23,126 nt of DNA. Source: a candidate division WOR-3 bacterium. GTDB lineage: Bacteria; Hydrothermota; Tepidihabitantia; Tepidihabitantales; Tepidihabitantaceae. Shown piece by piece: positions 3,469 to 17,977 of the stretch. Positions within the stretch are counted from its first letter, which is position 1. Each line of letters starts with the position of its first letter. Made by a program: the position numbers and the translations under genes. The notes under the pieces are model-generated. The model was not told where the DNA came from and did not search any database. It saw nothing but the letters and a program-made list of their open reading frames with translations. The stretch covers positions 1 to 23,126 of the forward strand of contig JANLFQ010000004.1 in assembly GCA_024653355.1 (NCBI GenBank), in the 5' to 3' direction.

Positions 3469-5343
3469 GTGCGACCGTATCCTTTGTTTATCACACTGTC
3501 AATCTGTTTGCTTATAACCGGCCTCATCGGCAAGGATGCGGTGATTGACAACCGAGCAATCGCCCTGACACCGGTTCTGACCGACCAGATTATTATCCCC
3601 CGGCTCATTTCGTATCAGGGCAAACTGACCGATACCCTTGGAAGACCGGTACCGAACGGCAACTACTCATTGACCTTCCGGCTCTACACCCAGGAAACCG
3701 GTGGCAACCCTTTCTGGAGCGAAACCCAGACGGTGCTGGTCCAGAACGGGCTATTTTCGGTCCTGCTGGGTGCGGCAATACCAATCCCGTCAATTCCGGA
3801 TAACGGTAATCTATACCTCAGTATGCAGGTGGACGCGGGTAGTGAACTGACTCCCCGTTTAAGGATTGGTAGTGTTCCCTACGCCTATCTGGCAGGAAGA
3901 ACCGCTAACGCCGATGCCTTGCAGGGCAAGGACACAACCGCGCTTGACTCCCGCTATGTGAACGAGGCACAAACAAACTCCATTACCAGCGCAATGATTC
4001 AGGATGGTGCAATTACCAATGCCGACCTCTCCAGTAATGCGGTTACGAGCGACAAGATTCTTGACGGCACAATCAGGGCTGCGGACCTTAATCAGATGGG
4101 TGCGGCAACAGGTCAAGTTTTAAAGTGGACCGGCGCTGCCTGGGCACCAGGAAATGACAATGTTGGTCAGGGTGATAGCGCCTGGGTGCGCGGCACACCG
4201 GACTCGGTTCTTTACACAATAAGGCAACTGGGCATTGCGCGTGGTGGTGCCAATAATATGCTTTATGGTTCCGGTCGCCACACCCATACGAACCTCGGTG
4301 TTGCCTGCACAACTGGAACAAGCGGCCAGAATTATTACTATTGCACGGTTGCTGGCGGATTAGGCAACACCGCTTCTGTTGACTATGCCACGGTTGCCGG
4401 CGGATTAGGCAACACCGCATCGAACTACTATGCAACGGTTGCCGGCGGCTGGTACAATACCGCCTCGGGCATAAATGCCACGGTTGCCGGCGGACACTAC
4501 AACACCGCCTCAAGGTACGCTGCTACAGTTGGGGGTGGAGATGGCGACACCGCCTCGGGCTACTGGGCAACAGTAGGAGGTGGCTCTGCAAATAAAGCGT
4601 CGGGCGACTATGCCACGATTGCCGGTGGCAAGGACAACAATGCCCTGGGCTACGCTGCCACGGTTGCTGGCGGGTATGCGGACACCGCAACGGGAGATTA
4701 CAGTTTTGCAGTTGGCTATAACTCGGTTGTGCGATCAGCTTTTTCACACTCTGCGGCATTCAACGGTCAGACCGCAACCGCATCAAACCAGACCAGAGTT
4801 GGCGTTCTTTCCAAAGCGTCCGGGTCATTTACCATTGACCATCCGCTTGACCCGTATAACAAAATCCTCAACCACTACTTCATTGAAGGTCCGGAGATGA
4901 GAAACATCTATGAAGGCTCGGTTATCCTTGATGCTACGGGCAGAGCCGAAGTGAAACTGCCGGACTACTTCTCAGCCTTGAACCGCAACCCGCACATTCA
5001 GTTGACCGGTGTGGGTACATACGAGGTGTATGTTGCTGAGGATGTCAAAGACAACCGGTTTGTGATTGGTGGTAAGCCCAATACCAAGGTTTACTGGCAG
5101 GTAACCGGTGAACGCCAGGATGTGTCAGCAGAGGCGACCAGACGGATGATGCCGGTTGAACAGCCCAAGACCGGTGCCCTTGCCGGCAGGATGCTGGACG
5201 ATGAGTTCTTATCCGGCTGTATGGCGCAACTGGAGCGTGAAGGTAAGGCATCAGGAATTGAGTTCCGCACCACTAAAGGCAGAGAGCGCTATGAGCGGAT
5301 GATGCGGGCGTTGCAGGAGAAGCCGGCAGAGATGAAGAAGTAA
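3469..5343 (+). CDS. Secreted YadA-head-like repeat protein with conserved C-terminal region
   Basis: About 624 residues. I choose GTG 3469 because GGGAGGT sits four bases before it and it gives a compact signal peptide (RPYPLFITLSICLLITGLIG). The frame also opens at ATG 3448, which has only a weak site. Order: signal; a ~110-residue beta domain beginning ISYQGKLTD, typical of secreted/tail-fibre-like proteins; a linker with GQVLKWTGAAW, as in collagen/tail-like proteins. Next come eight 15-residue repeats of the type YATVAGGxxNTASGx (4339-4698), the left-handed beta-roll seen in YadA/Hia heads. The C-terminal region starts near NHYFIEGPEMRNIYEGSV and ends in a charged helix. There is no YadA membrane anchor, so it is probably released or held by another route. 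Adhesion is inferred from the repeat type only. Confidence 0.7.
   Translation: MRPYPLFITLSICLLITGLIGKDAVIDNRAIALTPVLTDQIIIPRLISYQGKLTDTLGRPVPNGNYSLTFRLYTQETGGNPFWSETQTVLVQNGLFSVLLGAAIPIPSIPDNGNLYLSMQVDAGSELTPRLRIGSVPYAYLAGRTANADALQGKDTTALDSRYVNEAQTNSITSAMIQDGAITNADLSSNAVTSDKILDGTIRAADLNQMGAATGQVLKWTGAAWAPGNDNVGQGDSAWVRGTPDSVLYTIRQLGIARGGANNMLYGSGRHTHTNLGVACTTGTSGQNYYYCTVAGGLGNTASVDYATVAGGLGNTASNYYATVAGGWYNTASGINATVAGGHYNTASRYAATVGGGDGDTASGYWATVGGGSANKASGDYATIAGGKDNNALGYAATVAGGYADTATGDYSFAVGYNSVVRSAFSHSAAFNGQTATASNQTRVGVLSKASGSFTIDHPLDPYNKILNHYFIEGPEMRNIYEGSVILDATGRAEVKLPDYFSALNRNPHIQLTGVGTYEVYVAEDVKDNRFVIGGKPNTKVYWQVTGERQDVSAEATRRMMPVEQPKTGALAGRMLDDEFLSGCMAQLEREGKASGIEFRTTKGRERYERMMRALQEKPAEMKK
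4339..4698 (+). repeat. Eight 45-bp coding repeats (YadA-head type)
   Basis: Tandem 45-nt units start at 4339, 4384, 4429, 4474, 4519, 4564, 4609 and 4654, all in frame. Each encodes a 15-residue turn with the core ATVAGG..NTAS. Units 1-4 are closer to each other than to 5-8, suggesting stepwise expansion by slippage or unequal exchange. The following unit (4699 on, YSFAVGYNS...) is a degenerate capping turn. Confidence 0.85.
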
Positions 5344-6095
5344 AATAGAGCGCACATCAGCGCCCTGATATTACGCTAATTTCTGCTCGGACCTATTAAT
5401 GTGACTGGAGCATAAACGGGCTTGGGAGCAGGGAATTGAACATCGCCGGCAGACACCTGATATCAGAACCGGGGAATTTTCCGGGCAGAAAACCGGGCAC
5501 AGAATACGCAAAATAAGGGCAGCGGATTAGCAGATATTTGCCCTTGATGCGCTTGCTGGCAACCAGAGCTGCCCGCGGAATTGCGTTGTTATCTTCTGAA
5601 CCGGCGTCAATTAGCGATGCGGGCATTCTGACCCGAACCAATCATATTTTTGTCCGGGCGATTCCCGCTTACAGAACATAATGTGATATACCGACCGCAG
5701 AGTAAACCAATAAAGTTCTTCTGAAATGTAACCCAATTACAAAACCGGATGTTACACAGGAGACACCCGCAGGAACAGAATAAGAAACCGCGCATAAATT
5801 ACGCCCGAGAGCAAACCGCAGAACCCAACAACAGATTGCCGCGTTAATAACCGGCAAAATAGGGCTCTAAATAGAAGGGTAACCAACATCAGGGGCAACA
5901 ACCAGGATAACACCAGTTAGCACCATTAGCATTGCGGGTAAAAACGCCATAAAAAGGGCGGTAGAGACTATCCCAGGGATTGCCTCCGGACTGTCCACCG
6001 GACGGCAAAATTTTACAACTATTTGAAAACAATATATTTATACTATTGATTTTACCGGTTATCGCATAACATCTTAATATTTTGTATGTTAAACA
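5344..6095. other. Long intergenic stretch without an intact gene
   Basis: About 750 bases with stops in all frames and no ribosome binding site next to a long frame. The few short frames (60-80 codons, minus strand) show no family motif. The only ordered element I find is a terminator-like hairpin at 5980-6008. Beyond about 6010 the DNA becomes AT-rich and leads into the promoter of the phosphoesterase gene. The stretch may be decayed coding sequence or a long untranslated/non-coding transcript of the upstream gene. Confidence 0.5.
5980..6008 (+). terminator. Hairpin terminator in the long intergenic region
   Basis: TTGCC-TCCGG pairs with CCGGA-(C)-GGCAA around an eight-base loop, with a single bulged C, and is followed by AAATTTTA. 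The T-run is short, so efficiency is uncertain. The polarity fits plus-strand transcription from the left, more than 600 bases after the YadA-like gene ends. Confidence 0.5.
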
Positions 6096-6124
6096 TTGCC
6101 CTGCCCAAATAATTTCGCTATCAT
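6096..6124 (+). promoter_or_regulatory. Candidate leaderless promoter of the phosphoesterase gene
   Basis: TTGCCC (6096-6101) and TATCAT (6119-6124) are 17 bases apart, and the ATG at 6133 lies eight bases after the -10. Transcription would begin at or next to the start codon. This fits the absence of any Shine-Dalgarno sequence before that ATG. Confidence 0.35.
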
Positions 6125-6132
6125 CTTTACCG

Positions 6133-7494
6133 ATGAAATCAGGTAAAATTTATCTCATTTTGCTCTTTATCGCCGGCACATCGTTCGGCTTGTTTGTCCA
6201 TCCGCCCTATCTGCAAAACCTGACCGACTCCACGATAACCGTTGCCTGGCAAACTGCGGACACAAACATCGGCAGGGTGCGCTATGGCTTGAGCACCAAC
6301 TACGCGCGGGAAATCTCAGAAACCACGCCGTCAACCGCGCACCACCTTGTTTTAGACCAACTCCTTCCCGACACCGTCTATCACTATCAGGTTATTTCCG
6401 GGCAAGACACCACCGAGGACGCCACCTTCTTTACCCGGCGCCATGCTTCTGCGCCATTTCGCTTTCTTGTTTACGGTGACAACCGCACCGACAGCGCCGC
6501 ACACCAGGCGGTTGTTGACCGGATGTTCTTAACCAGCCCCAAACCCCAACTTCTGCTCAATGTTGGTGACCTGACCGATAACGGCACAGACGAAGAGTAC
6601 CGGACATTTTTCCGGATTGGAGGAAAAATCTTTAACCAGGCGCCACTTTATCCGGTGCTGGGCAATCACGACATCCGAACCCTGCCAAACTGGTTTGATT
6701 TTTTCTATCTACCCGGCAACGAACGCTGGTATCACTTCCTCTACGGCAACGCCGCCTTTTACTTTCTGGACAACTACTCCGATTTTTCACCCGGCAGCGA
6801 GCAGTACCGGTGGCTCCTTGACCAACTCCTTGCCGACAGCGCCAACCCCGATGTCCGGCACATATTCGTTACCTTCCACGAACCACCCTTCACAACCAGC
6901 GCCCGCCACTCCAGCAACGAGCAGGTCCAGCAGCACCTCTGCCCGCTTTTTGAACGGTTTCAAGTCCGGGCGGTTTTCAATGGCCACATCCACGCCTATG
7001 AACACAGTTTGGTCAACAACATCCACTACATCACCACCGGTGGTGGTGGTGCGCCGCTCCATACCGAATGGGACTCAATCCAGCCCTATACCGTTTACCG
7101 GGAAGCGAACTACCAGTTTGTCATTGTTGATGTCGCGGGCGACCTTGTCACCTGCCAGGCGGTGCGGGCAGACGGTAGCACAATGGAAACATTCACCTTA
7201 ATCCCGGGCGTCGGTGAAACCGAAAAAACCGATTGCCGGGCAACAAACCTGACCGCCTTCATCTGTTCGCTCAACCGGATTTGCCTCCAATTTCGCCTGG
7301 AAAAAGCGGCACCGATAAAACTGGTACTTTTTGACAATCAGGGCAGAGCGCGGTTAATGGTCAAACAGGGCTGGCTCGCGTCTGGTGAACACCGCTTTCT
7401 TCTCAACATTGGAAACCTGCCCGCCGGCAACTACTTTGCCCGACTCACAACACCGAAAAATACCGCCACCGCCCGCTTGACACTTTTTAAGTAA
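6133..7494 (+). CDS. Secreted purple-acid-phosphatase-type metallophosphoesterase with sorting domain
   Basis: 453 residues from ATG 6133. The frame opens at 6082, but only 6133 gives a normal signal peptide (MKSGKIYLILLFIAGTSFG). Order: signal; FN3-like N-terminal domain of purple acid phosphatases (about 22-100, with PYLQNLTDSTITVAWQT); calcineurin-like catalytic domain with all metal motifs present, YGDNR (114-118), NVGDLTD (143-149), GNHD (177-180), TFHEPPF (247-253) and GHIHAYEH (284-291); C-terminal sorting-type beta domain (about 375-453, LVLFDNQGR ... LPAGNYFARL). It should hydrolyse phosphomonoesters or diesters outside the cytoplasm with a two-metal centre; the substrate is unknown. 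The sorting domain suggests export and attachment by a T9SS-like route. Its last codons contain the promoter of the next gene. Confidence 0.85.
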   Translation: MKSGKIYLILLFIAGTSFGLFVHPPYLQNLTDSTITVAWQTADTNIGRVRYGLSTNYAREISETTPSTAHHLVLDQLLPDTVYHYQVISGQDTTEDATFFTRRHASAPFRFLVYGDNRTDSAAHQAVVDRMFLTSPKPQLLLNVGDLTDNGTDEEYRTFFRIGGKIFNQAPLYPVLGNHDIRTLPNWFDFFYLPGNERWYHFLYGNAAFYFLDNYSDFSPGSEQYRWLLDQLLADSANPDVRHIFVTFHEPPFTTSARHSSNEQVQQHLCPLFERFQVRAVFNGHIHAYEHSLVNNIHYITTGGGGAPLHTEWDSIQPYTVYREANYQFVIVDVAGDLVTCQAVRADGSTMETFTLIPGVGETEKTDCRATNLTAFICSLNRICLQFRLEKAAPIKLVLFDNQGRARLMVKQGWLASGEHRFLLNIGNLPAGNYFARLTTPKNTATARLTLFK

Positions 7495-8374
7495 GACGGT
7501 ATTATAGGGCAGTGTCCTTAAAACACCCATCCTGTTGAAAGGAGTGTTTATGAACAAACCACTTGCCCTCTTTTGCCTGACCCTGTTGATTGTCAACTGT
7601 GTTACCAACCAGCCACCCACCGCACCAGAAATCTCCGGTCCAACAACCGCCCGTCCTGGTGATACTGTCACCTTCACCTTTGTCGCCACCGACCCCGAAG
7701 GCAGCGAAGTGTCCTACAAAATTGTCTGGGGCGACACATCCAGCATTGACTGGACACCATTTTACGCCAGCGGTCAACCAGTGCGGCGCCAGCACATCTA
7801 TCCGGACACCGGCACCTACACCATCAAGGCAATCGCCCGCGACCAAAAACTCAAAGAGTCACCCTGGAGCGAAAGTTTGATTGTCAACATCCGGTTACTT
7901 CCGCCCGGAGTTCCGGAAAAGCCGGCTGGTCCTGCCTTCTGCACCACCGGCGTAACCTATCAGTACCGATTCCGTGCCTCCCATCCCCAGAACGACAGCC
8001 TCTGGTACCAGATTGACTGGGGTGGCAAGGTTGACGACTGGCGCGGACCAATACCCAGCGACACCTATCTACTGGTCAATCACACCTTTGACACCGCGGG
8101 CATCTATGCGATTGCGGTGCGGGCACGTGACAGCCGAATGCAGATGACCAACTGGTCTGATACCCTGCTCGTTACGGTTGTGGCGATTCCCGGTGGACCA
8201 CCAACAAACTTCACAATTGAAGCGGCAAGCGACACCACCGTGCGCCTGTCCTGGCAACCACCTGTTGAAGGCGTGCCCAACTTCTACCGGTTGCAGTTCA
8301 AAGAGATTGGCGGCACCGGCTGGAGCACAGTCGTTGAAACCAGCGCCTTGAGCGTGGAACACAACCCGCACGGC
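7467..8374 (+). repeat. Direct repeat, copy 1: promoter plus 5' part of lipoprotein gene
   Basis: Copy 1 of a 908-bp direct repeat with an offset of 1593 bp. It begins inside the last nine codons of the phosphoesterase gene and contains the promoter, the ribosome binding site and the first 275 codons of the lipoprotein. By eye the copies are identical from 7467 to 8345, differ at 8346-8347, match again to 8374, and then diverge sharply. Confidence 0.9.
7477..7505 (+). promoter_or_regulatory. Promoter of lipoprotein copy 1, inside the phosphoesterase 3' end
   Basis: TTGACA (7477-7482) and TATTAT (7500-7505) are separated by exactly 17 bases. The -35 and most of the spacer lie within the coding end and stop codon of the phosphoesterase gene. 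A small GTGT/ACAC hairpin could form in the leader just after the start of transcription. Confidence 0.6.
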
Positions 8375-8914
8375 AAAACCGGCGTTTACAAGGTATCGGC
8401 TTTATTCGACTCGGCAGAATATACCTGTACCACTACTCTTACCACCGTGCCAGTAGCAACTTCTGCCTTGACTATTGCTGAATTGAATGCAGGGAGTAAT
8501 TCTGGATACGGCTGGAACCGCACCACCGGTGAGGGTGCAACTTACTCAATGACTCAGGCAGCAAACGCGGCGAATGTCGACTTCTACATCACCGACTTCC
8601 AGACAACAACCTACTCAATTGCCAGTCCTGACCTCGGTCCAAGTGACCCGGGCAATATAGTTCCCGCCGCCTCCTGGCGCGTAAATGGAATTGCTGGCCC
8701 CCTTACAAGTGAAAACGCTCCTCTACCAGCTCATTCGGCCGGTGTTTATTTCAACTATCAAGATATCACCCGTACACCATATCTCGCTGCCATCTACACC
8801 GAGGATGGTTACTACGCTCTAGTAAAACTGTACGGATTTAACCCTGTTGACAAAACCTATCAGGTTTCTGGCTGGTTCCAGTTGGTCAAAGGACTGCGCT
8901 TAATCCAGCACTAA
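7550..8914 (+). CDS. FN3/PKD-type surface lipoprotein, copy 1
   Basis: 454 residues from ATG 7550, which has AAAGGAG at 7538-7544; the frame runs back to a TTG at 7535, which overlaps that site and is not the start. A hydrophobic leader ends in LLIVNC (C17), a lipobox-like site with an unusual Asn at -1, so lipidation is probable but not certain. Order: PKD/Ig-like domain (about 22-115, with YKIVWGDTS and DTGTYTIKAIARD); a second similar domain (about 118-215, YQIDWGG, DTAGIYAIAVRARD); FN3 domain (about 218-300, TVRLSWQPP); C-terminal domain (about 305-454) with GYGWNRTTGEG and FYITDF. Residues 1-265 are identical to copy 2. The repeated WGD/AxDxxxxxSxWS pattern is known from extracellular binding modules; no enzyme motif is visible. 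The ligand is unknown. Confidence 0.75.
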   Translation: MNKPLALFCLTLLIVNCVTNQPPTAPEISGPTTARPGDTVTFTFVATDPEGSEVSYKIVWGDTSSIDWTPFYASGQPVRRQHIYPDTGTYTIKAIARDQKLKESPWSESLIVNIRLLPPGVPEKPAGPAFCTTGVTYQYRFRASHPQNDSLWYQIDWGGKVDDWRGPIPSDTYLLVNHTFDTAGIYAIAVRARDSRMQMTNWSDTLLVTVVAIPGGPPTNFTIEAASDTTVRLSWQPPVEGVPNFYRLQFKEIGGTGWSTVVETSALSVEHNPHGKTGVYKVSALFDSAEYTCTTTLTTVPVATSALTIAELNAGSNSGYGWNRTTGEGATYSMTQAANAANVDFYITDFQTTTYSIASPDLGPSDPGNIVPAASWRVNGIAGPLTSENAPLPAHSAGVYFNYQDITRTPYLAAIYTEDGYYALVKLYGFNPVDKTYQVSGWFQLVKGLRLIQH

Positions 8915-8930
8915 CCGAACGATAATCTCA

Positions 8931-8956
8931 AGAGCCTCAGGATATCCGGAGGCTCT
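8931..8956 (+). terminator. Intrinsic terminator after lipoprotein copy 1
   Basis: AGAGCCTC (8931-8938) pairs perfectly with GAGGCTCT (8949-8956), and the intervening GGATATCC is itself self-complementary. ATTTTATT follows directly. It ends transcription 17 bases after the stop codon, so copy 2 depends on its own promoter. Confidence 0.75.
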
Positions 8957-9059
8957 ATTTTATTGCCGCATAAAGATTTTATATAACTATCGGGTTTTGT
9001 TTACAACTATTCTCGCCCTTGTCTGTGTCTTTACTTTCTCGGGTGCGGGGTTCTTGGCA

Positions 9060-9967
9060 CACCGCCCGCTTGACACTTTTTAAGTAAGACGGTATTATAG
9101 GGCAGTGTCCTTAAAACACCCATCCTGTTGAAAGGAGTGTTTATGAACAAACCACTTGCCCTCTTTTGCCTGACCCTGTTGATTGTCAACTGTGTTACCA
9201 ACCAGCCACCCACCGCACCAGAAATCTCCGGTCCAACAACCGCCCGTCCTGGTGATACTGTCACCTTCACCTTTGTCGCCACCGACCCCGAAGGCAGCGA
9301 AGTGTCCTACAAAATTGTCTGGGGCGACACATCCAGCATTGACTGGACACCATTTTACGCCAGCGGTCAACCAGTGCGGCGCCAGCACATCTATCCGGAC
9401 ACCGGCACCTACACCATCAAGGCAATCGCCCGCGACCAAAAACTCAAAGAGTCACCCTGGAGCGAAAGTTTGATTGTCAACATCCGGTTACTTCCGCCCG
9501 GAGTTCCGGAAAAGCCGGCTGGTCCTGCCTTCTGCACCACCGGCGTAACCTATCAGTACCGATTCCGTGCCTCCCATCCCCAGAACGACAGCCTCTGGTA
9601 CCAGATTGACTGGGGTGGCAAGGTTGACGACTGGCGCGGACCAATACCCAGCGACACCTATCTACTGGTCAATCACACCTTTGACACCGCGGGCATCTAT
9701 GCGATTGCGGTGCGGGCACGTGACAGCCGAATGCAGATGACCAACTGGTCTGATACCCTGCTCGTTACGGTTGTGGCGATTCCCGGTGGACCACCAACAA
9801 ACTTCACAATTGAAGCGGCAAGCGACACCACCGTGCGCCTGTCCTGGCAACCACCTGTTGAAGGCGTGCCCAACTTCTACCGGTTGCAGTTCAAAGAGAT
9901 TGGCGGCACCGGCTGGAGCACAGTCGTTGAAACCAGCGGTTTGAGCGTGGAACACAACCCGCACGGC
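9060..9967 (+). repeat. Direct repeat, copy 2: promoter plus 5' part of lipoprotein gene
   Basis: Second copy of the repeat at 7467-8374. It begins with the last nine codons and stop of the phosphoesterase gene, here with no phosphoesterase upstream. That orphan tail shows this copy derives from the copy-1 locus. Upstream of 9060 (8957-9059) the sequence is unrelated to the phosphoesterase. Confidence 0.9.
9070..9098 (+). promoter_or_regulatory. Promoter of lipoprotein copy 2
   Basis: The same TTGACA-17-TATTAT promoter as before copy 1 (9070-9075 and 9093-9098), carried in the duplicated orphan tail of the phosphoesterase gene. Confidence 0.6.
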
Positions 9968-10516
9968 TTGACCGGAATGTACAAAATCGCTGCGGTGTTT
10001 GGCGCTACCGTTTACGAAGATACCATTCCCCTTTCCACTGTACCGGTCCCGACCGGCAATGTTACCGTGGGCGAACTTTCCGGTCCGGACAAACCAGGCT
10101 ATGGCTGGAACCGATTAACGGGCATCGGCAAGGCGTTTCTGATGAACGATACCATTTACTGCGATTCAATTGACTGGTTCTGCACCGACTTTGCCACCGG
10201 CTCAAACGGACCATTCTACTATGTTGTCAGTCCGCACATCGCACCATATGACACCAGCGGCAATGTGCCTCCTGGACCCTGGCGCCAGACCGCGCTCGCC
10301 CTGCTTGCCGATGAACAGGGACCGGTGCCACCTGCCGGTGACACCTCCTACCACAACATCATCCGGCTCACCACCGCACCGGTCTCATTTGCCATCCGCA
10401 CCGAAGACGACTACTATGCAATCGTCAAAGTCAACCAGATAAGAATCTCCAACAAAGACATCCGCGCCCAGGCATGGTTCCAGCCCATCAACGGCTTACG
10501 CCTGCTCCGGCATTAA
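9143..10516 (+). CDS. FN3/PKD-type surface lipoprotein, copy 2 with divergent C-terminus
   Basis: 457 residues from ATG 9143 with AAAGGAG at 9131-9137. Residues 1-265 (leader with lipobox-like C17, two PKD/Ig-like domains, most of the FN3 domain) are identical to copy 1. From residue 266 the two differ, and after residue 275 they are only distantly related. The C-terminal domain keeps GYGWNRLTGIG and a WFCTDF equivalent, ends in AQAWFQPINGLRLLRH (copy 1 has SGWFQLVKGLRLIQH), and so has the same fold. Codon use matches the flanking genes rather than the AT-rich island that starts just after it. The function is probably the same as copy 1 with a different surface on the last domain. Confidence 0.75.
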   Translation: MNKPLALFCLTLLIVNCVTNQPPTAPEISGPTTARPGDTVTFTFVATDPEGSEVSYKIVWGDTSSIDWTPFYASGQPVRRQHIYPDTGTYTIKAIARDQKLKESPWSESLIVNIRLLPPGVPEKPAGPAFCTTGVTYQYRFRASHPQNDSLWYQIDWGGKVDDWRGPIPSDTYLLVNHTFDTAGIYAIAVRARDSRMQMTNWSDTLLVTVVAIPGGPPTNFTIEAASDTTVRLSWQPPVEGVPNFYRLQFKEIGGTGWSTVVETSGLSVEHNPHGLTGMYKIAAVFGATVYEDTIPLSTVPVPTGNVTVGELSGPDKPGYGWNRLTGIGKAFLMNDTIYCDSIDWFCTDFATGSNGPFYYVVSPHIAPYDTSGNVPPGPWRQTALALLADEQGPVPPAGDTSYHNIIRLTTAPVSFAIRTEDDYYAIVKVNQIRISNKDIRAQAWFQPINGLRLLRH

Positions 10517-10548: not shown

Positions 10549-10579
10549 TAGTTAAACTCTACTCTTCACCATAAATTTC

Positions 10580-10607
10580 TTGACTTTGAGATAAAAATAA
10601 TTATAAG
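10580..10607 (+). promoter_or_regulatory. Candidate promoter of the TIR-STAND gene
   Basis: TTGACT (10580-10585) and TATAAG (10602-10607) are 16 bases apart in the AT-rich gap. If used, transcription would begin near 10614 and leave a leader of about 230 bases. That leader contains three short hairpins: GAAGT/ACTTC at 10619-10634, CTCCGT/ACGGAG at 10702-10724, and TTGCCA-A-TGGCAA at 10729-10741. Confidence 0.4.
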
Positions 10608-10725
10608 TAAGGCAAGATGAAGTCTATGTACTTCGCCTATATATCAAAACTAGGCAAGGGGCCGACGTTATTAGATTGTGAACGAGTTAAACCAAATGGG
10701 GCTCCGTAAATTTAAATAACGGAGA

Positions 10726-10842
10726 ATGTTGCCAATGGCAAGGAATGTCCAGCAGCATAAAATGATTGTTCCTTTAGGCATTCACCGCAACTGTATTAGT
10801 CAAAATTTCTTACCTGTAAGTTTAATAACAATAAAAGGATAG
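10726..10842 (+). CDS. Possible 38-residue leader peptide before the TIR-STAND gene
   Basis: ATG 10726 is preceded by ACGGAGA and opens a 38-codon frame that stops with TAG at 10840-10842, four bases before the TIR-STAND ATG. The stop overlaps the ribosome binding site of that gene (AAAGGA, 10834-10839). The peptide (MLPMARNVQQHK ... SLITIKG) has no recognisable family. The geometry would allow translation to reach and affect the downstream start. A frame of this length can occur by chance, so it is a candidate only. Confidence 0.25.
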   Translation: MLPMARNVQQHKMIVPLGIHRNCISQNFLPVSLITIKG

Positions 10843-10846
10843 AGCG

Positions 10847-13444
10847 ATGACACCAAATAATAAATTGAGACTGTTTATCAGTTATTCCCACCAAGATGAA
10901 GACCCCTATGTTAAAGAATTTAAACGTCATATTTCAACATTAGAAAATAATGCTCTCATTGAATATTGGTACGATCGTAAAATTATACCGGGCGAAGATT
11001 ACCAAAATAAAATTAACAATAATTTAGAAGACGCCGATATTATCTGTTTATTTATTTCCGCAAACTTCCTCTCTTCAAAAGCGTGCATGGAAGAAAAAAA
11101 TAAAGCACTAGAGTTAAAAAGAAAAAAATGTGTTGCTGTCATTCCAATTATTCTTTCACCCTGTGCATGGCAAGATTGTAACGATATTTCTAATCTTTTG
11201 GCATTACCCCGTGATGGAATACCAATTTCCACTTTTCAAAGCCGAGACGTTGGTTGGTTGGATGTGTACGAAGGAATTAAAAAGGTAGTGGAACAGGAAT
11301 TAAAATTTAGGCAATTAGAAATAACCGACGATTTTAAGGACTTTCTACAGGAAACCCAAATGTTAACAAAAGCCCATTCTAAAAAAGAAACGTTGTTATT
11401 AGAAGATATATTTATATATCCTGAGCTCGATAAATTCAGTGAGTTAAGAAAGTTTGTGAAAACCATTGGTTTGGATGAATTACTACAAAGTATTACTGAT
11501 CATCCAAAACTTGTTATAGCGGGTGAAAATTTATCTGGTAAAACTACAATCTGTAAAATATTATTCAAAGAATTAAGAAAAAGGAATTTTGTACCTGTTT
11601 ATATTTATGATAAAAATAAATTTGCTGGTAAAATAGAAAGTAAAATTACAGACGCACTAAAAACCCAATATAAAAATTTCGATGAAATTTTATTACAAGA
11701 AAAAGAAAGGATAGTTCCCATTGTTGATGATTTCCACACTGCCAAGAATAAAGAGAAACACATAAAACATTTACTCTCATATCGCTATTGCATATTAATA
11801 GTAGATGATATTTTTCGCTTAAACATAAAAGATGATGCACTTGTAAGTCAATTTATCTATTTAACGATAAGGGAGTTAAAGCCCTCACTAAGATACGAAC
11901 TCGTGAAAAAGTGGTGTTCCTTATCTAATAAAGAAGAACCAGATATTGATTACCAATCTATTGACCACAGAGTTGATTTAATCAATCAGCTCTTAGGGAA
12001 AAATATTAGCAAGAGTATTTTCCCTTCATATCCTTTCTTCATTCTTTCTGCTATTTTAACTTATGAAACATTTGCAATTCCCCTTAACGAAGAACTCACA
12101 TCTCAAGGATATTGTTATCAAGCTTTGATATATTTTTATTTAAGAAAACAAGGCGTAATAAACGAAGACATCGATATATATATAAATTTTCTTACTGAAC
12201 TAGCTTATTATTTTTACCATGCAAGGAAAGTCGAAATATCAGATACAGATTTTAACTCATTCATAACCTACTATTCAAAGAAATATAGTATTCCAATAAC
12301 GCCAAGGACATTAATTAAAAATTTAAACCAAATAATTTCTATTGACAGTTTCCACAGGTATTCATTTCGTTACCCCTATCTATATTACTTTTTTGTTGCT
12401 AAATATCTGGTTGAACACATTGAAGATAAAGAGATAAAGAATGAAATAGAGAAGATAGCTAACAATCTTCATATAGATGAATACGCTTATATTATGATTT
12501 TTATGGCACACCATTCAAGAAGTGTTAGCATATTGGATGAAATTGAACTCAATGCGTTATTTCTATTTGATAAATATTCACCGGCTAAATTAACAAAAGA
12601 AGAAGTTCAGTTTTTTGATGAAGAGGTAAATAAAATTATACAGATATCCTTACCGCCTGCAACAACACCACCCGAAAAGGTACGAGAGGAAATATTAGCA
12701 ATTCAAGATAAAATTGACCAATTAGAACCGACACAAAATGATTCCGATATAAACGAAAGCGAAGAATACGACCCATTTGAAAAAGATTTAAGAAGAGCGA
12801 TTAGGTCTGTAGAGGTTATTGGTTGCGTCATAAAAAATAGAGCGGGTTCTATAGAAAAAAAGAAACTCGAAGAGATGTTTACCGAAGCTATGAATGTCCA
12901 TCTGAGATTTTTATCTCTCTTTTTTGATATTATAAGAAATAAAGAAATGCAAAAATCTATTATTAGGTTTTTGTTAGGAATATTGACAAAAATTATTGAG
13001 GAAAAAGAAGCAGAACAGAAAAGAATAAGCATGGAAAAGATAGAAGAATATGCAAGAACACTATTTTGGAATATAAACTTCTTCGTAGTAGTCGCATATA
13101 TTCATAAAATAATACGGTCTTTGGGTTCTGATAAATTAATCGAAATTATCAATAAAGTTTGTAACGAAACCGCCACGCCTGCGACATTTTTAGTAAAACA
13201 TGGGGTTTTAATGTGGTATTGTAAGAATCTGCAAATTGACGAAATTGCGAAAAAGATTAAGGAAAAGGACTTTTCAATAATCGCAGAAAAAACATTAAAA
13301 TTATTGGTTGTTAATCATTGTGCTTTACATGAAATAAATTATAGGGATAGACAACGGATAGAAGCTTTATTAAACATACCCATTAAAAGATGCTTACCGA
13401 AAAATGCCGATAATGCAAATGTAATAAGTCGTGAGGACCAATAA
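10847..13444 (+). CDS. TIR-STAND (NACHT-like) NTPase, probable anti-phage NADase sensor
   Basis: 865 residues; ATG 10847 has AAAGGA upstream. Residues 1-150 form a TIR domain: LRLFISYSHQDED (7-19), YWYDRKIIPGEDY (40-52), and SANFLSSKACMEE, where C80 and E83 match the S..C..E catalytic position of NAD-cleaving TIR domains. An NTPase domain follows from about 215: Walker A GENLSGKTT (226-234), Walker B RIVPIVDDFH (288-297). Near 505 is FRYPYLYYFFVAKYL, the F.h....yFfA.yL motif of NACHT-type proteins. The C-terminal 300 residues are helical and probably the sensor. In related systems ligand or phage-protein binding drives oligomerisation and NAD depletion. No separate effector or Thoeris partner (ThsA) is adjacent. 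It is convergent with the minus-strand module and clearly AT-rich, as expected for an acquired gene. Confidence 0.8.
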   Translation: MTPNNKLRLFISYSHQDEDPYVKEFKRHISTLENNALIEYWYDRKIIPGEDYQNKINNNLEDADIICLFISANFLSSKACMEEKNKALELKRKKCVAVIPIILSPCAWQDCNDISNLLALPRDGIPISTFQSRDVGWLDVYEGIKKVVEQELKFRQLEITDDFKDFLQETQMLTKAHSKKETLLLEDIFIYPELDKFSELRKFVKTIGLDELLQSITDHPKLVIAGENLSGKTTICKILFKELRKRNFVPVYIYDKNKFAGKIESKITDALKTQYKNFDEILLQEKERIVPIVDDFHTAKNKEKHIKHLLSYRYCILIVDDIFRLNIKDDALVSQFIYLTIRELKPSLRYELVKKWCSLSNKEEPDIDYQSIDHRVDLINQLLGKNISKSIFPSYPFFILSAILTYETFAIPLNEELTSQGYCYQALIYFYLRKQGVINEDIDIYINFLTELAYYFYHARKVEISDTDFNSFITYYSKKYSIPITPRTLIKNLNQIISIDSFHRYSFRYPYLYYFFVAKYLVEHIEDKEIKNEIEKIANNLHIDEYAYIMIFMAHHSRSVSILDEIELNALFLFDKYSPAKLTKEEVQFFDEEVNKIIQISLPPATTPPEKVREEILAIQDKIDQLEPTQNDSDINESEEYDPFEKDLRRAIRSVEVIGCVIKNRAGSIEKKKLEEMFTEAMNVHLRFLSLFFDIIRNKEMQKSIIRFLLGILTKIIEEKEAEQKRISMEKIEEYARTLFWNINFFVVVAYIHKIIRSLGSDKLIEIINKVCNETATPATFLVKHGVLMWYCKNLQIDEIAKKIKEKDFSIIAEKTLKLLVVNHCALHEINYRDRQRIEALLNIPIKRCLPKNADNANVISREDQ

Positions 13445-13826
13445 AGGTTTTGGATCGCGTACTTATCCACCTTTACCTAAACACCACTCATCTAAATTTT
13501 GCATTGACGAAGGCCCCGTTATGACCAAAAATTCCCCTAATCTGCAGGCGACATAAAAATAACGGCGCACAATAAAACTAATTTCAGAATCTATCGCCTC
13601 AATTATCAGTAAAGAATTTTTTACGGGTTCAGTTTTACTATTGCGGCGTTGAGGACGCTCACAATCAACTTTACAATGTCCGCGGCTTTCGTACCAACGC
13701 CCGCTTTTTATTAACTAAACTAATTGTAATCGGGTTCGCTTACCTGTCTATCCACGTCTTACAATTCCCCTCATGTAAAAGAAATATAACACAACCAATT
13801 ATTACAAGACCTCACTCCGACGATTT
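13445..13826. other. Non-coding junction between the two halves of the island
   Basis: About 380 bases without an intact gene, between the convergent ends of the TIR-STAND gene and the GIY-YIG relic. The only feature I can identify is the tspO deletion relic at 13606-13695. I found no clear terminator for the TIR-STAND gene and no repeat matching the far ends of the island. Confidence 0.5.
13606..13695 (-). pseudogene. tspO: tspO relic: both ends fused by an internal in-frame deletion
   Basis: This stretch matches both ends of the intact tspO at 17498-17977. Plus-strand 13606-13658 matches the 3' end and its flank (about 17484-17534), and the rest matches the 5' end (about 17939-17979). The middle is missing; relative to the intact gene 408 bases (136 codons) are gone, which keeps the frame. 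The remaining 24 codons (13621-13692) would read ...KLIVS joined to VLNAAIVKLNP-stop. The intact gene has GATG at both possible junction points, so a four-base microhomology deletion is likely. The start codon has become ACG, so it is not expected to be expressed. It lies in the same orientation as tspO on the opposite side of the nuclease module. The shared flank beyond the stop is nearly identical, with a few transitions. Confidence 0.8.
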
Positions 13827-14301
13827 TCACATTGTCTCGAGTCCCCTTAGTATTTTTTTAAGTTCTTCTCTTGAAACATTGAATTTACGTTCAAACTCTT
13901 CCATCACTTCTTCCCCATACCCACTGCCCTGAGTATTACATTTTGGTATGTCACCATATATTTCTTTGAATAAATACAAAAAGGCTCTTTCGGCATCGTC
14001 CGGCGAACCACTTTCTTCAATCGCTGTAAAATAAAATGAGCAACTATTACAAACTTGCTTAATCTTTTTTTTCGATGATACCAACTACTAATCCCCCATA
14101 AGCGAATCCCGATGTCAACATTTCCCATGCATTACTTGTCGTTTTGCCGATATATATAACTCGTGACTTTTCATGTTTATATTCAACTTGCGTATCGCTT
14201 AAGACGAAGTAAACATAACTACTTTTCTCAAGCGCGGAGATGGTTTTTTCATCGTACTCAAAATCGAATTTAATCTCACCGAATTTCAAAACTTTCAACA
14301 T
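13827..14301 (-). pseudogene. GIY-YIG-like nuclease gene split by a frameshift in an A8 tract
   Basis: The frame starts at ATG 14301 with a strong GAGGAGG four bases upstream and encodes SYVYFVLSD ... VIYIGKTT, the paired GIY and YIG strands of this nuclease fold, but stops at 14059. The rest of the domain continues in another frame at 14084-13827: AERAFLYLFKEIYGDIPKCN, resembling the late E..l...fk..G.P.cN part of the fold, then a helical tail. The frames meet at a run of eight A's on the minus strand (14072-14065); removing one A joins them into one protein of roughly 155 residues. After YIGKTT the usual Arg seems replaced by Met (SNAWEML), which hints at loss of catalysis. It lies downstream of the PD-(D/E)XK gene on the same strand, with nearly the same start-site sequence. 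It could be a sequencing error, a true pseudogene, or a slippage-controlled gene. Confidence 0.6.
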
Positions 14302-14430
14302 TTAACCTCCTCTGAAAGTTTGGTGCTTAACCATCTTATTCATCTTACAACCTGTTTTATTCATTTGAATTCCAAACAAAGTTCTGGATAAAGGCGTAGG
14401 TAAGGTTGTTTTTAATTAGTTGATTGCTCA
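14302..14430. other. AT-rich spacer with partial inverted copy of the hairpin element
   Basis: AACCTGTTTTATTCATT near 14348-14364 is, in opposite orientation, similar to one half of the 43-base element at 14431-14473. The pair could form a larger stem. Nothing else is recognisable here apart from the ribosome binding site of the GIY-YIG relic. Confidence 0.3.
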
Positions 14431-14473
14431 GATTATAAGAATGAAACAGGTTCAGATGCCTGTCTTTGGTCAT
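14431..14473 (-). terminator. Repeated hairpin element, left copy; likely terminator of the nuclease operon
   Basis: 43-base element matching 17276-17318 at 40 positions. On the minus strand it reads AGACAGG-CATCTGAA-CCTGTTT, a stem of up to seven pairs with one G-U, followed by a T-rich tail (TTTCATTCTTATAA). It lies about 25 bases after the stop of the PD-(D/E)XK-like gene, the right place and polarity for an intrinsic terminator. Confidence 0.55.
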
Positions 14474-14498
14474 ATCCAACTATTTTATAAAGCTAATG

Positions 14499-15512
14499 TC
14501 AACTAATATTCTGCAGTCTTTTAAGCTTACGGACAAATGAATCAAGTTTTGGGAAAACAACTTTATCACCTCGCCATCTAAATAAAAGTAGTTCAATCCC
14601 TAATTTATTTAATTTTGCTTCAAGAGTTTTGTTCACTTTCTTTGGAATCGTAAGAATCAATTTTGGACGTGTTGATATCCCAACGCCATTTAGTAGCAAT
14701 TGTCCTACTCCACAATATATACTTGTTGATGAAATATCAGTCTTAATCTCGAAGAGGGATACCTTTTCACCCTTTGCGTTTACTACAAAAAGATCACATT
14801 GTTTATTATTTCCAACCTTGAAACCCCGACGCTCTAAATCGGAATCTAACGCGTTCACTATCGATCCATGGTCACATTTTGCTACTATTTTATCCTTTTC
14901 GCTTATATATACTTTCTCGCCCTCAAACTCTTCCCTGAATTCTATTGCTCTTTGTTGTTCTCGCGCTGGCGCATAAATGAGGTCTTTGATTCTTTTAACT
15001 TCAAATACAAACTGACTTACCTGCCTAACAAAGCGCGGAGAATCCATTGCACCGACAAGCGCTACCTTAGTTTCAACCCCATTCTCATCAATAGCTATCC
15101 ATTCTCCTCTATAATTATCTTCAAACAGGGACTTCCCAATACCTTTTCTGCCTCCGCCAATTTTCCCCCGATGAACGACAATAAGACTCCCTGAACTATC
15201 TGTTACAAACGCACCTCCAATACTTCTGTCAATACCTCTCGAAGGGAAATTGATTTCGCAAATAATTGAAACATTGGCGCCTTTACTCGGTTCTCCAATC
15301 CCAAATGCATTCCAATATCGGTTTTCCGCTTTTTCCTTGGATAGTAGCATCCAAATACCCAGCTTGCTTGACCAAGAAACCTCCTTTTTCTGACTATCTC
15401 CACGATGACCAACATTTACCGAGATTTTTTTGTCGATAAAAGGTTCAAATTTTTTTATAAATTTATGCTGGGCATCCTCAATCCTTTTTTCATCATCAAC
15501 GATTTTAAACAT
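14499..15512 (-). CDS. PD-(D/E)XK-like nuclease partner of the GmrSD-like protein
   Basis: 337 residues; ATG 15512 has GGAGG four bases upstream and overlaps the end of the DUF262 gene by eight bases, so translation is coupled. The C-terminal third (about 205-337) has a PD-(D/E)XK layout: helix DHGSIVNALDSDLERRGFKVG, then CDLFVV (D240), SLFEIKTD (E255, K257), then IYCGVGQLLLNG (Q271). The N-terminal 200 residues contain two striking blocks, ENRYWNAFGIG (63-73) and HRGKIGGGRKGIGK (114-127), plus ICEINFPSRGIDRSIGGAF between them. I do not recognise that domain; the basic glycine-rich loop could contact nucleic acid. A DNA-cleaving or DNA-binding partner of the neighbouring HNH protein is the likeliest role, inferred from motif spacing and coupling. 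Confidence 0.65.
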   Translation of the reverse strand: MFKIVDDEKRIEDAQHKFIKKFEPFIDKKISVNVGHRGDSQKKEVSWSSKLGIWMLLSKEKAENRYWNAFGIGEPSKGANVSIICEINFPSRGIDRSIGGAFVTDSSGSLIVVHRGKIGGGRKGIGKSLFEDNYRGEWIAIDENGVETKVALVGAMDSPRFVRQVSQFVFEVKRIKDLIYAPAREQQRAIEFREEFEGEKVYISEKDKIVAKCDHGSIVNALDSDLERRGFKVGNNKQCDLFVVNAKGEKVSLFEIKTDISSTSIYCGVGQLLLNGVGISTRPKLILTIPKKVNKTLEAKLNKLGIELLLFRWRGDKVVFPKLDSFVRKLKRLQNIS

Positions 15513-17235
15513 TTAACCTCCATCTGTCCAAACAAAACTTGATGATGTCTTCCGTTATTTGGTCTATTTTGTTTCTATCAAACCTTCTATTACTTATATC
15601 GCATCCCATATCCCTAGTTCTTGGAATGTTAGATCTCTGATAATATCGTGCCTTTTGTTCGGGTAGGTTGTCTTGGCATAGCGCATTTAAGTTACTTTCC
15701 AGCAAGCAGAGATTACCTAATCTATGTATATTTTCGAGATATTCGCCCTCATTATTAAATTCATAAGCCGGAAAAGCGAATCTAGGATTTTGTGCAAAGA
15801 TATGCTCTATTTGGCAGTCTTTATAAAGTGAACTATCGCAATCATTAAACGATGAATTTCTATGCTTCTCGTACTCCCATAAAATAAATTTAGTCGCTGG
15901 ATTGTTATAAATCGGTTGATTAAGCGTATGCTGAAATAATGTATCCGGCATAAACTCTTTTATAAAAGCTCGAATACCTTCCTCGATTAACTGAATGTTT
16001 GGTTGGCTCTTTATTTTGGCGATGACATTTATATATAAACCTGCTCTAGGTTCAGTTCCTCTTATCTTATAAACTCTTAAATCCAAAGTCTCTATTAGTT
16101 CGAGGGTTGAGTCGCTAAGCTTACCCTCTGTTTCTAATGAAATGATTAATGGATATACTCTTGTATTCAACCCTAAAAAACTGAATAACTTTTTGTATCT
16201 ACAATCTGTGTTTACCCTTTCTATTACATTTTTAAAAGCGCAAGCAAATTTTTCTAACCCATCTAAGAACTCCTCTATAAATTTCCCTAGGTCAGCAGGG
16301 GTGTTTTTAAGTTGGTTACAGGATCCTTTTAAAAATATTTCAAAGACGTTATCCGCAGTAGCATCATAGTCGTAAGCACCATTTAACTTATACCGCTGAA
16401 TAGCGTAAAAGGCAAAATAATGATAAAAAAATCTTAACAATTCATCCTCTGTAAACCTATCGCGACTTAAATAAGTTATACTCTCTTGTTCTCCAATTTC
16501 TTTGATTCTGTCATAGTAAGTGAAGATATTACCAAATGTGCTTTTTATTTTCTCATTTAACCCATTTTTCAAGTGTTTCATTGAGATAAACATCAAATAA
16601 CTTTTGGTTTTATCCAGTAGGGTTAAGGGTTTTCCTCTATCGTTAAGACTTTCAAAAGCTTTTACTGCTAAGAACGAGTCCTGAACTATAAATTCCAGGC
16701 AAAAAGTGTTATTCTGTATATATTTAGATAACTCGGAAAGCTCATTATTTTGAACAAAGCTACGGATTTGATTTTCAAAATAATTAAGGCAATCTCTCAA
16801 ACGCCTATTGGTTTTTATATCAGGGTTGGGGTCTCTGCCATCTACCAGATCTTTTAAAAATTGATTATTAAGTCCTCCAAGCTCGACTCGATAAATATCA
16901 CCACATTTAATAAAGTTATCTCTCAAGGCGGGTTTACCAGCCCTAGAAAGTGCAAGCAAAAATAAATATATTGTAGTTATTCGTTGTTGACCATCGACGA
17001 CTTCATATAAGTTATATGGTATGTCCTTCTCGGTGCAATAACGACTTTCCTCGGTAGCTTTTAAAGTAATCGTGCCCCAGTAATGTGCCGTCTTAGTTAA
17101 CAAGCCTTCTCTTATGTCATTCCAGAAATCTTCCCAATTTTTGTCAGTCCATGCGTAATTCCTTTGATAGTCAGGTATTTTAAATACTTTATTAGTAAAT
17201 AACTCTGATATATTCTTTAGAAGGTGATTTCCCAT
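15505..17235 (-). CDS. GmrSD-like DUF262/DUF1524 (HNH) restriction protein
   Basis: 576 residues; ATG 17235 with AAAGGAGG five bases upstream. N-terminal DUF262 domain: FKIPDYQRNYAWTDKNWEDF (18-37), VVDGQQRITT (79-88; the DGQQR motif of the ParB/Srx-like NTPase fold), and ESLNDRGKPLTLLDKTKSYLM (about 195-215). C-terminal DUF1524 HNH nuclease: IEHIFAQNP (from 476, with H478), HRLGNLCLLESNLN (504-517), and LPEQKARYYQRS (about 524-535). This domain order is that of single-chain GmrSD/BrxU-type enzymes, which use a nucleotide to restrict DNA carrying modified cytosine. Substrate preference here is unknown. It is the first gene of a two-gene unit with the coupled PD-(D/E)XK-like protein. The gene is AT-rich with a tail of rare codons relative to the flanks, as in an acquired module. 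Confidence 0.85.
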   Translation of the reverse strand: MGNHLLKNISELFTNKVFKIPDYQRNYAWTDKNWEDFWNDIREGLLTKTAHYWGTITLKATEESRYCTEKDIPYNLYEVVDGQQRITTIYLFLLALSRAGKPALRDNFIKCGDIYRVELGGLNNQFLKDLVDGRDPNPDIKTNRRLRDCLNYFENQIRSFVQNNELSELSKYIQNNTFCLEFIVQDSFLAVKAFESLNDRGKPLTLLDKTKSYLMFISMKHLKNGLNEKIKSTFGNIFTYYDRIKEIGEQESITYLSRDRFTEDELLRFFYHYFAFYAIQRYKLNGAYDYDATADNVFEIFLKGSCNQLKNTPADLGKFIEEFLDGLEKFACAFKNVIERVNTDCRYKKLFSFLGLNTRVYPLIISLETEGKLSDSTLELIETLDLRVYKIRGTEPRAGLYINVIAKIKSQPNIQLIEEGIRAFIKEFMPDTLFQHTLNQPIYNNPATKFILWEYEKHRNSSFNDCDSSLYKDCQIEHIFAQNPRFAFPAYEFNNEGEYLENIHRLGNLCLLESNLNALCQDNLPEQKARYYQRSNIPRTRDMGCDISNRRFDRNKIDQITEDIIKFCLDRWRLNV

Positions 17236-17275
17236 ATTTTTCCTCCTTTAACTTGTATATAATATGTATTGTATT

Positions 17276-17318
17276 GATTATAAAAATAAAACAGGTTCAG
17301 ATGCCTGTCTCTGGTCAT
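17276..17318 (-). terminator. Repeated hairpin element, right copy; likely tspO terminator
   Basis: Second copy of the 43-base element at 14431-14473 (three differences). On the minus strand ACAGG-CATCTGAA-CCTGT is followed by TTTATTTTTATAA, a better T-tract than the left copy. It lies between tspO and the GmrSD-like gene on that strand, so it can insulate the defence operon from tspO transcription. The promoter of the operon must lie between it and 17240, where the DNA is AT-rich (TATTATATA-like) but shows no clear -35. Confidence 0.55.
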
Positions 17319-17497
17319 TGTTAGTTTATTACATATATAATTTTAAGTTTTCTGTCAAGTAAATTATTAAATAAATAAGAAACATATTATTACCTTTATG
17401 CTTGCACCATAAGCCCGTTACACAGGAGGAGATAATAAAAGACTTGTCAACTGGTCTAAACTTGTTCGTTCTGTTCGCTTCAGTCAGTAAAGAATTT

Positions 17498-17977
17498 TTA
17501 CGGATTCAGTTTTACTATTGCGGCGTTGAGGATGGTGGCAAATGTTACCCAGCCGATATAGGGCAAGAGTAAGACGCCGGCAGGAACAGAGACCCGGAAG
17601 AAGAGGATGATGGTGACGAGAATCGCCAGCCAGAGGATAGTAATTTCCATAAGTCCGGCAAGGGGCGAGCGCAAACCAAAGAAGAGAAAGGACCAGAGGA
17701 CATTGAGCGCCAGTTGAATAAGGAAAACAAAGAGCGCCAGTTTTACGCCCGGGGCATTAAACCCTTTGCGCCAGACCAAAAACAGGGCGATACCCATCAG
17801 GATAAAAAGTAATGTCCATGCCGGTCCGAAGAGCCATCTTGGCGGATTGAAGACCGGTTTGTTTAAACTTTGATACCAGTTGGGGATTTTCGGCGCCGTG
17901 GCAACATTGCCGAGCGCACCCGCTGCCAATGGTAGGGCGATGCTCACAATTAACTTTACAATATCCGCACCTTTCAT
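17498..17977 (-). CDS. tspO: TspO/MBR family membrane protein (tryptophan-rich sensory protein)
   Basis: 159 residues, the usual TspO length, with five hydrophobic helices. Signature motifs are present: WYQSLNKPVFNPPRWLFGPAW (34-54), LNVLWSFLFFGLRSP (91-105) and LLPYIGWVTFATILN (137-151). TspO proteins bind tetrapyrroles and related ligands in the membrane and in bacteria influence porphyrin and stress responses; the substrate here is not determined. ATG 17977 is preceded by GAGGT. It follows mrp by 63 bases and has its own promoter at 18003-18030, so it may be transcribed alone or as the end of the UPF0251-NifX-Mrp run. A deletion relic of the same gene lies at 13606-13695 on the far side of the nuclease module. 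Confidence 0.9.
   Translation of the reverse strand: MKGADIVKLIVSIALPLAAGALGNVATAPKIPNWYQSLNKPVFNPPRWLFGPAWTLLFILMGIALFLVWRKGFNAPGVKLALFVFLIQLALNVLWSFLFFGLRSPLAGLMEITILWLAILVTIILFFRVSVPAGVLLLPYIGWVTFATILNAAIVKLNP

Follow-up and report, generated by a model that had tools for sequence, protein, structure and literature searches.

How does a bacterial genome come to carry two adjacent lipoprotein genes that begin with one sequence and end with two? The question is raised by the window analyzed here, a 23,126-bp stretch (positions 1-23126 of contig 4, C4) of a candidate division WOR-3 genome labelled G000 (a 1.88 Mb assembly of 6 contigs), in which two tandem genes, copy 1 and copy 2, share their promoter and N-terminal part. 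We propose, with a probability of roughly 60%, that copy 1 is a chimera made by additive integration, in which a donor fragment from a sister lineage would have been inserted with duplication of 908 bp of recipient DNA, leaving the chimera beside its unharmed parent. The locus was compared with that of G001, a genome of the same genus (g1), and with further comparison genomes (G006, G010, G012, G014 and genus g5). We refer to the ancestral lipoprotein of the copy 2 locus as B-type, to the two-gene lipoprotein cluster on contig C1 of G000 and its relatives as C1-type, and to the C-terminal half of copy 1 as C_A.

Extent and age of the repeated block

A first-pass annotation of the sequence had claimed 879 identical bases in the two genes, followed by two changes, 27 more identical bases and an abrupt drop, and base-by-base comparison bore this out. 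Positions 7467-8345 and 9060-9938 matched exactly over 879 bp, and the sequences further left of 7467 and 9060 shared no identity. To the right of the exact match came a pair of neighboring differences (8346-8347, CC in copy 1 and GT in copy 2) and 27 identical bases (8348-8374), after which identity dropped to ~50% (0.498 over 534 nucleotides, nt). The 27-bp stretch was also identical in the G001 ortholog, so that the true border of the block lies at 8374/8375 and these 27 bases are uninformative on recency. The sharp border inside the FN3 domain that had been described earlier was thus confirmed, with its position corrected. The differences were not spread evenly along the block: both fell in its last 29 bp, and the rest was identical. 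The outgroup codon at the changed site was GCT, compared with GCC in copy 1 and GGT in copy 2, which would most simply be explained by one change in each copy.

From the G001 ortholog the block differed by 12.4%, with the differences scattered along its length; given this divergence, an exact match of 879 bp cannot reasonably be attributed to chance. Within the 879 bp, divergence was at most 0.34% (95% upper bound), which, set against 12.4% to G001, argues for a recent event; synonymous divergence (dS) between the N-terminal blocks of copy 1 and copy 2 was 0.005. The left border of the block (7467) falls within the 3' end of the phosphoesterase gene that precedes copy 1, 10 bp before the -35 hexamer begins; in the promoter of the G001 ortholog the hexamers and their spacing are unchanged. 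Further genes with this 5' cassette, which the first-pass annotation had envisaged, were not found in a search of the genome, which recovered only these two copies.

Parent and chimera

In G001 the phosphoesterase gene and other neighbors are conserved, and a single lipoprotein gene with 90% amino acid (aa) identity to copy 2 occupies the syntenic place. Copy 2 diverged from the G001 gene to the same extent in its N-block (0.878 nt identity, dS 0.459) and in its C-part (0.877 nt identity, dS 0.451), while the C-part of copy 1 had only 0.515 nt identity to it, showing that copy 2 is the vertically inherited, old gene. On these comparisons we read copy 2 as the intact ancestral gene and copy 1 as the chimera. 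Copy 2 is preceded by a displaced piece of the phosphoesterase gene's 3' end; copy 1 therefore has the native upstream context, and the new DNA lies between the two blocks. The earlier suggestion of a recent duplication combined with replacement of the 3' part was right in that a duplication is joined to a different 3' part; the replacement did not hold, copy 2 being intact and the donor segment added.

Source of the inserted segment

The segment between the blocks (8375-9059) is colinear with a C1-type cluster, comprising the C-terminal half of gene 1, a repeat resembling a terminator and the opening codons of gene 2, and it matched C1:904851-905372 and C1:905435-905507 in that order. The colinearity continues after the stop codon of copy 1, where the local scores were 76 and 60, compared with shuffled maxima of 29 and 26. 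The aa identity of copy 1 changes from B-type to C1-type near residue 273, and in a 39-row tree of C-domains copy 1 was the sole PKD-bearing protein within a clade of PKD-less C1 gene 1 proteins. The insert was absent from the G001 locus. Together, these matches indicate an origin of the insert outside the recipient locus.

The search for a donor covered the genome itself, 147 genomes of the phylum and the GTDB r220 contigs. No high-identity match to the insert was found elsewhere in the own genome, which likewise held no near-identical donor for the C-half of copy 1 of the kind that the first-pass annotation had proposed for the variable C-terminal domains. The 147 phylum genomes contained no exact donor, the best match having 76% nt identity, and the GTDB contigs yielded three related loci only, the best with 83% aa identity. 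The own C1 gene was rejected as a recent donor because its identity was only 76% nt, the same as that of genus g5 genomes. Composition gave no proof of foreign origin: the GC content at third codon positions (GC3) of C_A, 0.49, was low compared with its neighbors, but 21% of 631 genome windows were equally low. No match linked the insert to phage. The placement of the donor was split: the coding part leaned to g5/G014, and the spacer and the gene 2 relic leaned to g1, the own genus. We infer a horizontal donor that branched either along the stem of g1 or within a sister genus.

Several genomes of the family share a conserved cluster of two FN3/C-domain lipoprotein genes (L048:3515-5264, G000 C1; L070:4728-6500), which lies beside a gene that we take to be rny (RNase Y). 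G012 carries three FN3/C-domain lipoprotein genes in tandem.

Junctions and a path to the present locus

The two ends of the insert differ in kind. At the left junction, copy 1 passes from one gene to the other within conserved homologous FN3 codons (HNPxG/KTG), and the frame is kept. At the right junction there is a microhomology of ~8 bp: the relic of gene 2 aligns with the Gly-Gly-Pro-Pro-Ala codons of the donor up to CCGCCCGC, which is also recipient sequence 7469-7476, just upstream of the -35 box. The match was 7 of 8 bases to G001 and to the G006 and G010 donors, a level that ~0.1% of the 8-mers in the window reach. One homologous and one microhomologous junction thus flank the donor-like DNA.

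These features are consistent with the following path, in a single recent event. The ancestral locus would have consisted of phosphoesterase, promoter and lipoprotein B, as in G001 today. A donor fragment of ~0.7 kb from the C1-type cluster of a sister lineage, containing the C-half of gene 1 with its terminator and the start of the gene 2 coding sequence, would have joined by its left end through FN3 homology (8345-8375) on one chromatid and by its right end through microhomology at 7467 on the other. The site paired by the right end would have been upstream of that paired by the left end; the sister chromatid or a template switch would most probably account for this, and 908 bp of recipient DNA would thereby be duplicated. 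The product would be copy 1, with the old promoter and N-terminus, a donor C-half and a donor terminator, followed by copy 2, with a full promoter and the ancestral protein, and nothing would have been lost. The insertion that created the fusion left the parent unbroken because the duplicated block happens to hold a complete promoter; copy 1, behind the old promoter, would presumably be expressed. Uptake of the fragment by transformation is plausible, and genes for ComEC and DprA are present in this genome, which is only permissive for such uptake. The features of the locus are given in Table 1.

Table 1. Positions of the features discussed, in window coordinates (nt, nucleotide; aa, amino acid; RBS, ribosome-binding site)
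Feature	Position	Strand	Remarks
Metallophosphoesterase gene, upstream	6082-7494	+	listed open reading frame start 6082; 3' end marks the block copy in native context
Shared 5' block, copy 1, native position	7467-8374	+	908 bp; last 28 bp of phosphoesterase gene, promoter, RBS, signal peptide, two PKD-like domains, most of FN3
Sigma-70-like promoter, copy 1	7477-7505	+	TTGACA-17-TATTAT
Copy 1, chimeric; putative lipoprotein	7550-8914	+	454 aa; PKD-PKD-FN3-C-domain of C1 type
C-terminal half (C_A), probably imported	8375-8914	+	72-75% nt and 79-83% aa identity to gene 1 of C1-type cluster
Terminator, probably imported	8931-8956	+	inverted repeat with 13-nt arms, then T-rich stretch; aligns with repeat after C1 gene 1; consensus scanner made no call
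Decayed gene 2 start (relic)	8985-9069	+	lacks RBS and ATG, net 2-nt frameshift; last 8 bp CCGCCCGC (9062-9069) fit donor and recipient
Shared 5' block, copy 2, duplicated	9060-9967	+	908 bp; has displaced 28-bp phosphoesterase tail
Duplicated promoter, copy 2	9070-9098	+	
Copy 2, ancestral; putative lipoprotein	9143-10516	+	457 aa; ortholog of G001:C2:413813-415183

The chimera appears to have arisen by processes of a known kind. Homology-facilitated illegitimate recombination, which depends on DNA uptake and RecA and reportedly occurs mainly with deletion of recipient DNA, also places a homologous anchor and a microhomology junction around foreign DNA; at our locus recipient DNA was duplicated and none was lost. 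In Streptococcus pneumoniae, transformation yields tandem duplications (merodiploids) by bridging sister chromatids (PMC3784515). Those merodiploids likewise involve pairing of the donor at two places on sister chromatids, a tandem duplication and a recombined joint between donor and repeat. They differ in that the duplications are ~100-900 kb long and both pairings are homologous (PMC3784515), compared with 908 bp, a diverged donor and one microhomology junction in WOR-3, where uptake is only inferred. Most domain-shuffled genes are too old to reveal their making; here both breakpoints, a relative with an empty site, the parental gene and the family of the donor gene are readable together, so that the origin of a chimeric gene in a bacterium can be traced stepwise in an uncultured lineage.

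Alternative explanations

Several observations weigh against a single recent integration of foreign DNA. The gene 2 relic is decayed: ~44 bp including the ribosome-binding site and ATG are gone, and there is a net frameshift of 2 nt. The branch leading to C_A is long (0.17). Relic and C_A together suggest more decay than the spotless 5' block would lead one to expect, unless the donor was already decayed. Both differences lie within the final 29 bp of the block (p 0.001 for independent changes, 0.03 for a single event), a placement also expected at the edge of a gene conversion. The true donor was not found in the own genome, the 147 phylum genomes or the GTDB r220 contigs. The grouping of C_A with the C1 genes of its own genus was unrejected (approximately unbiased test, AU; p 0.088 for protein, 0.449 for DNA), the GC3 of C_A is ordinary for the host, and ComEC and DprA were found in most control genomes. 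We evaluated the possibility that the chimera is older, the insertion-duplication having occurred before or near the split of G000 and G001. G001 would then have lost copy 1 by repeat recombination, and gene conversion would hold the 908-bp blocks identical as decay or adaptation changes the C-parts and the spacer. Such a history would fit the decayed relic, the long branch of C_A, the two differences gathered at the right end of the block, and the greater likeness of the relic and terminator to the own genus. Concerted evolution of partial duplicates by gene conversion (general review, PMC3966226) shares with our locus an identical block that sharply borders diverged flanks; it differs from the present case, judged from single genomes, in that identity here extends right up to the breakpoint and G001 lacks the pair. 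At the left breakpoint identity runs exactly to a position where G001 differs by ~15-18%, whereas conversion tracts would often end short; no relative carried a trace of copy 1, and so close a repeat pair should often delete, so that long persistence would need selection. The 5' blocks were closer to each other within G000 than to the G001 ortholog, and there was no sign of a duplication older than the split. We consider an older chimera unlikely on this evidence, while giving it some weight.

The tandem arrangement could also have been created in the computer, if strains or species mixed in a metagenome were misjoined and the 5' block written twice. The sequence comes from a 6-contig assembly judged from contigs alone, in which an exact 879-bp repeat is difficult for short reads, and the relatives are known from metagenome-assembled genomes. 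Against such an error, no known donor has more than ~8-10 bp in common with the right junction, less than an assembler needs for an overlap, the reading frame is kept at the left junction, and the insert was not found in other contigs; collapsed repeats are, moreover, normally lost and not duplicated. We regard an artifact as improbable. Even less credit is due to the constant/variable surface-protein arrangement that the first-pass annotation had seen in the pair; at an antigenic-variation locus of this kind the 5' cassette would be a fixed expression site, and C-modules would be swapped with stored donors by recombination. One promoter and N-terminus with two different C-domains would suit such an antigenic-variation locus, as would the many partners of PKD N-modules and FN3-C-domains in the family, and the MgpC gene of Mycoplasma genitalium (PMC2169797) likewise encodes a surface protein and combines constant with variable parts. 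Unlike the MgpC locus, our genome yielded neither donor cassettes nor further copies: the 5' block occurs in only two copies, near-identical donor cassettes were not found in the genome, and the relative G001 has a single gene. Additive integration remains our preferred reading.

Domains of the two proteins

The PKD and FN3 domains matched the profiles PF00801, PF18911 and PF00041 above the curated cut-off. The N-terminus, MNKPLALFCLTLLIVNC, reads as a lipoprotein signal, with an atypical Asn preceding the Cys, and both proteins are putative lipoproteins with a lipobox-like signal ending in Cys. The C-domain had no Pfam match up to E=1. An AlphaFold2 model of FN3 and C-domain had a mean predicted local distance difference test score (pLDDT) of 90. 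Foldseek matches with the full-length model were dominated by FN3, and a shorter model, and a second look, led to 4ei0, a protein of Parabacteroides merdae from DUF4466, a family of unknown function. The predicted fold of the C-domain matched 4ei0 (Z 13.5, 2.9 A, 141 residues) and differs from it by a sequence identity of 14% and the absent Pfam match. A surface-anchored binding or structural role may be suggested from the model.

The ratio of nonsynonymous to synonymous divergence (dN/dS) of C_A against its relatives was roughly 0.06-0.1, with dS near saturation; this low ratio mostly reflects constraint before the fusion and is no proof that the chimera functions. Across the family, PKD N-modules and FN3-C-domains are paired with many partners, and the shuffling of domains as such seems frequent in this group. 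We explored the possibility that the promoter and PKD N-module serve as a landing site at which WOR-3 cells repeatedly capture FN3/C-domain fragments from related cells, the parent being kept and the 5' block made uniform by recombination, and find it doubtful.

Neighboring features

Downstream of the lipoprotein pair, a low-GC (~0.3-0.37) defense island (10560-17495) extends to a gene (17498-17977) which we take to be TspO-like, in surroundings of ~0.55 GC. The island encodes a TIR/nSTAND protein, small open reading frames, a 337-aa protein without a Pfam match and a GmrSD-type protein. The same slot in G001 is occupied by a different gene with weak SIR2-type matches, which makes the island site look like a defense hotspot. 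A 47-bp direct repeat (89%) at 13618-13664 and 17495-17541 corresponds to the 3' end of gene 17498-17977, and its copies look like attachment sites around a 3.9-kb element inserted at the 3' end of that gene; no integrase for the element was seen among the open reading frames of the window. The protein encoded at 10847-13444 matched a DS8 anti-phage model from residue 150 (model positions 301-994), below the NCBIfam cut-off, and has a ThsB-like TIR domain at its N-terminus, a possible effector swap on a DS8-like sensor. A 43-bp repeat (93%) at 14431-14473 and 17276-17318 lies just upstream of minus-strand open reading frames starting at 14301 and 17235, the former copy being situated between 14301 and 14499, and may be a shared regulatory element. 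Upstream of the phosphoesterase gene, a run of 45-bp repeats (4336-4695) encodes 15-aa units of the YATVAGGxxNTAS type; the 631-aa protein that contains them has a weak UspA1-repeat match, and this repeat run seems to resemble the heads of trimeric adhesins.

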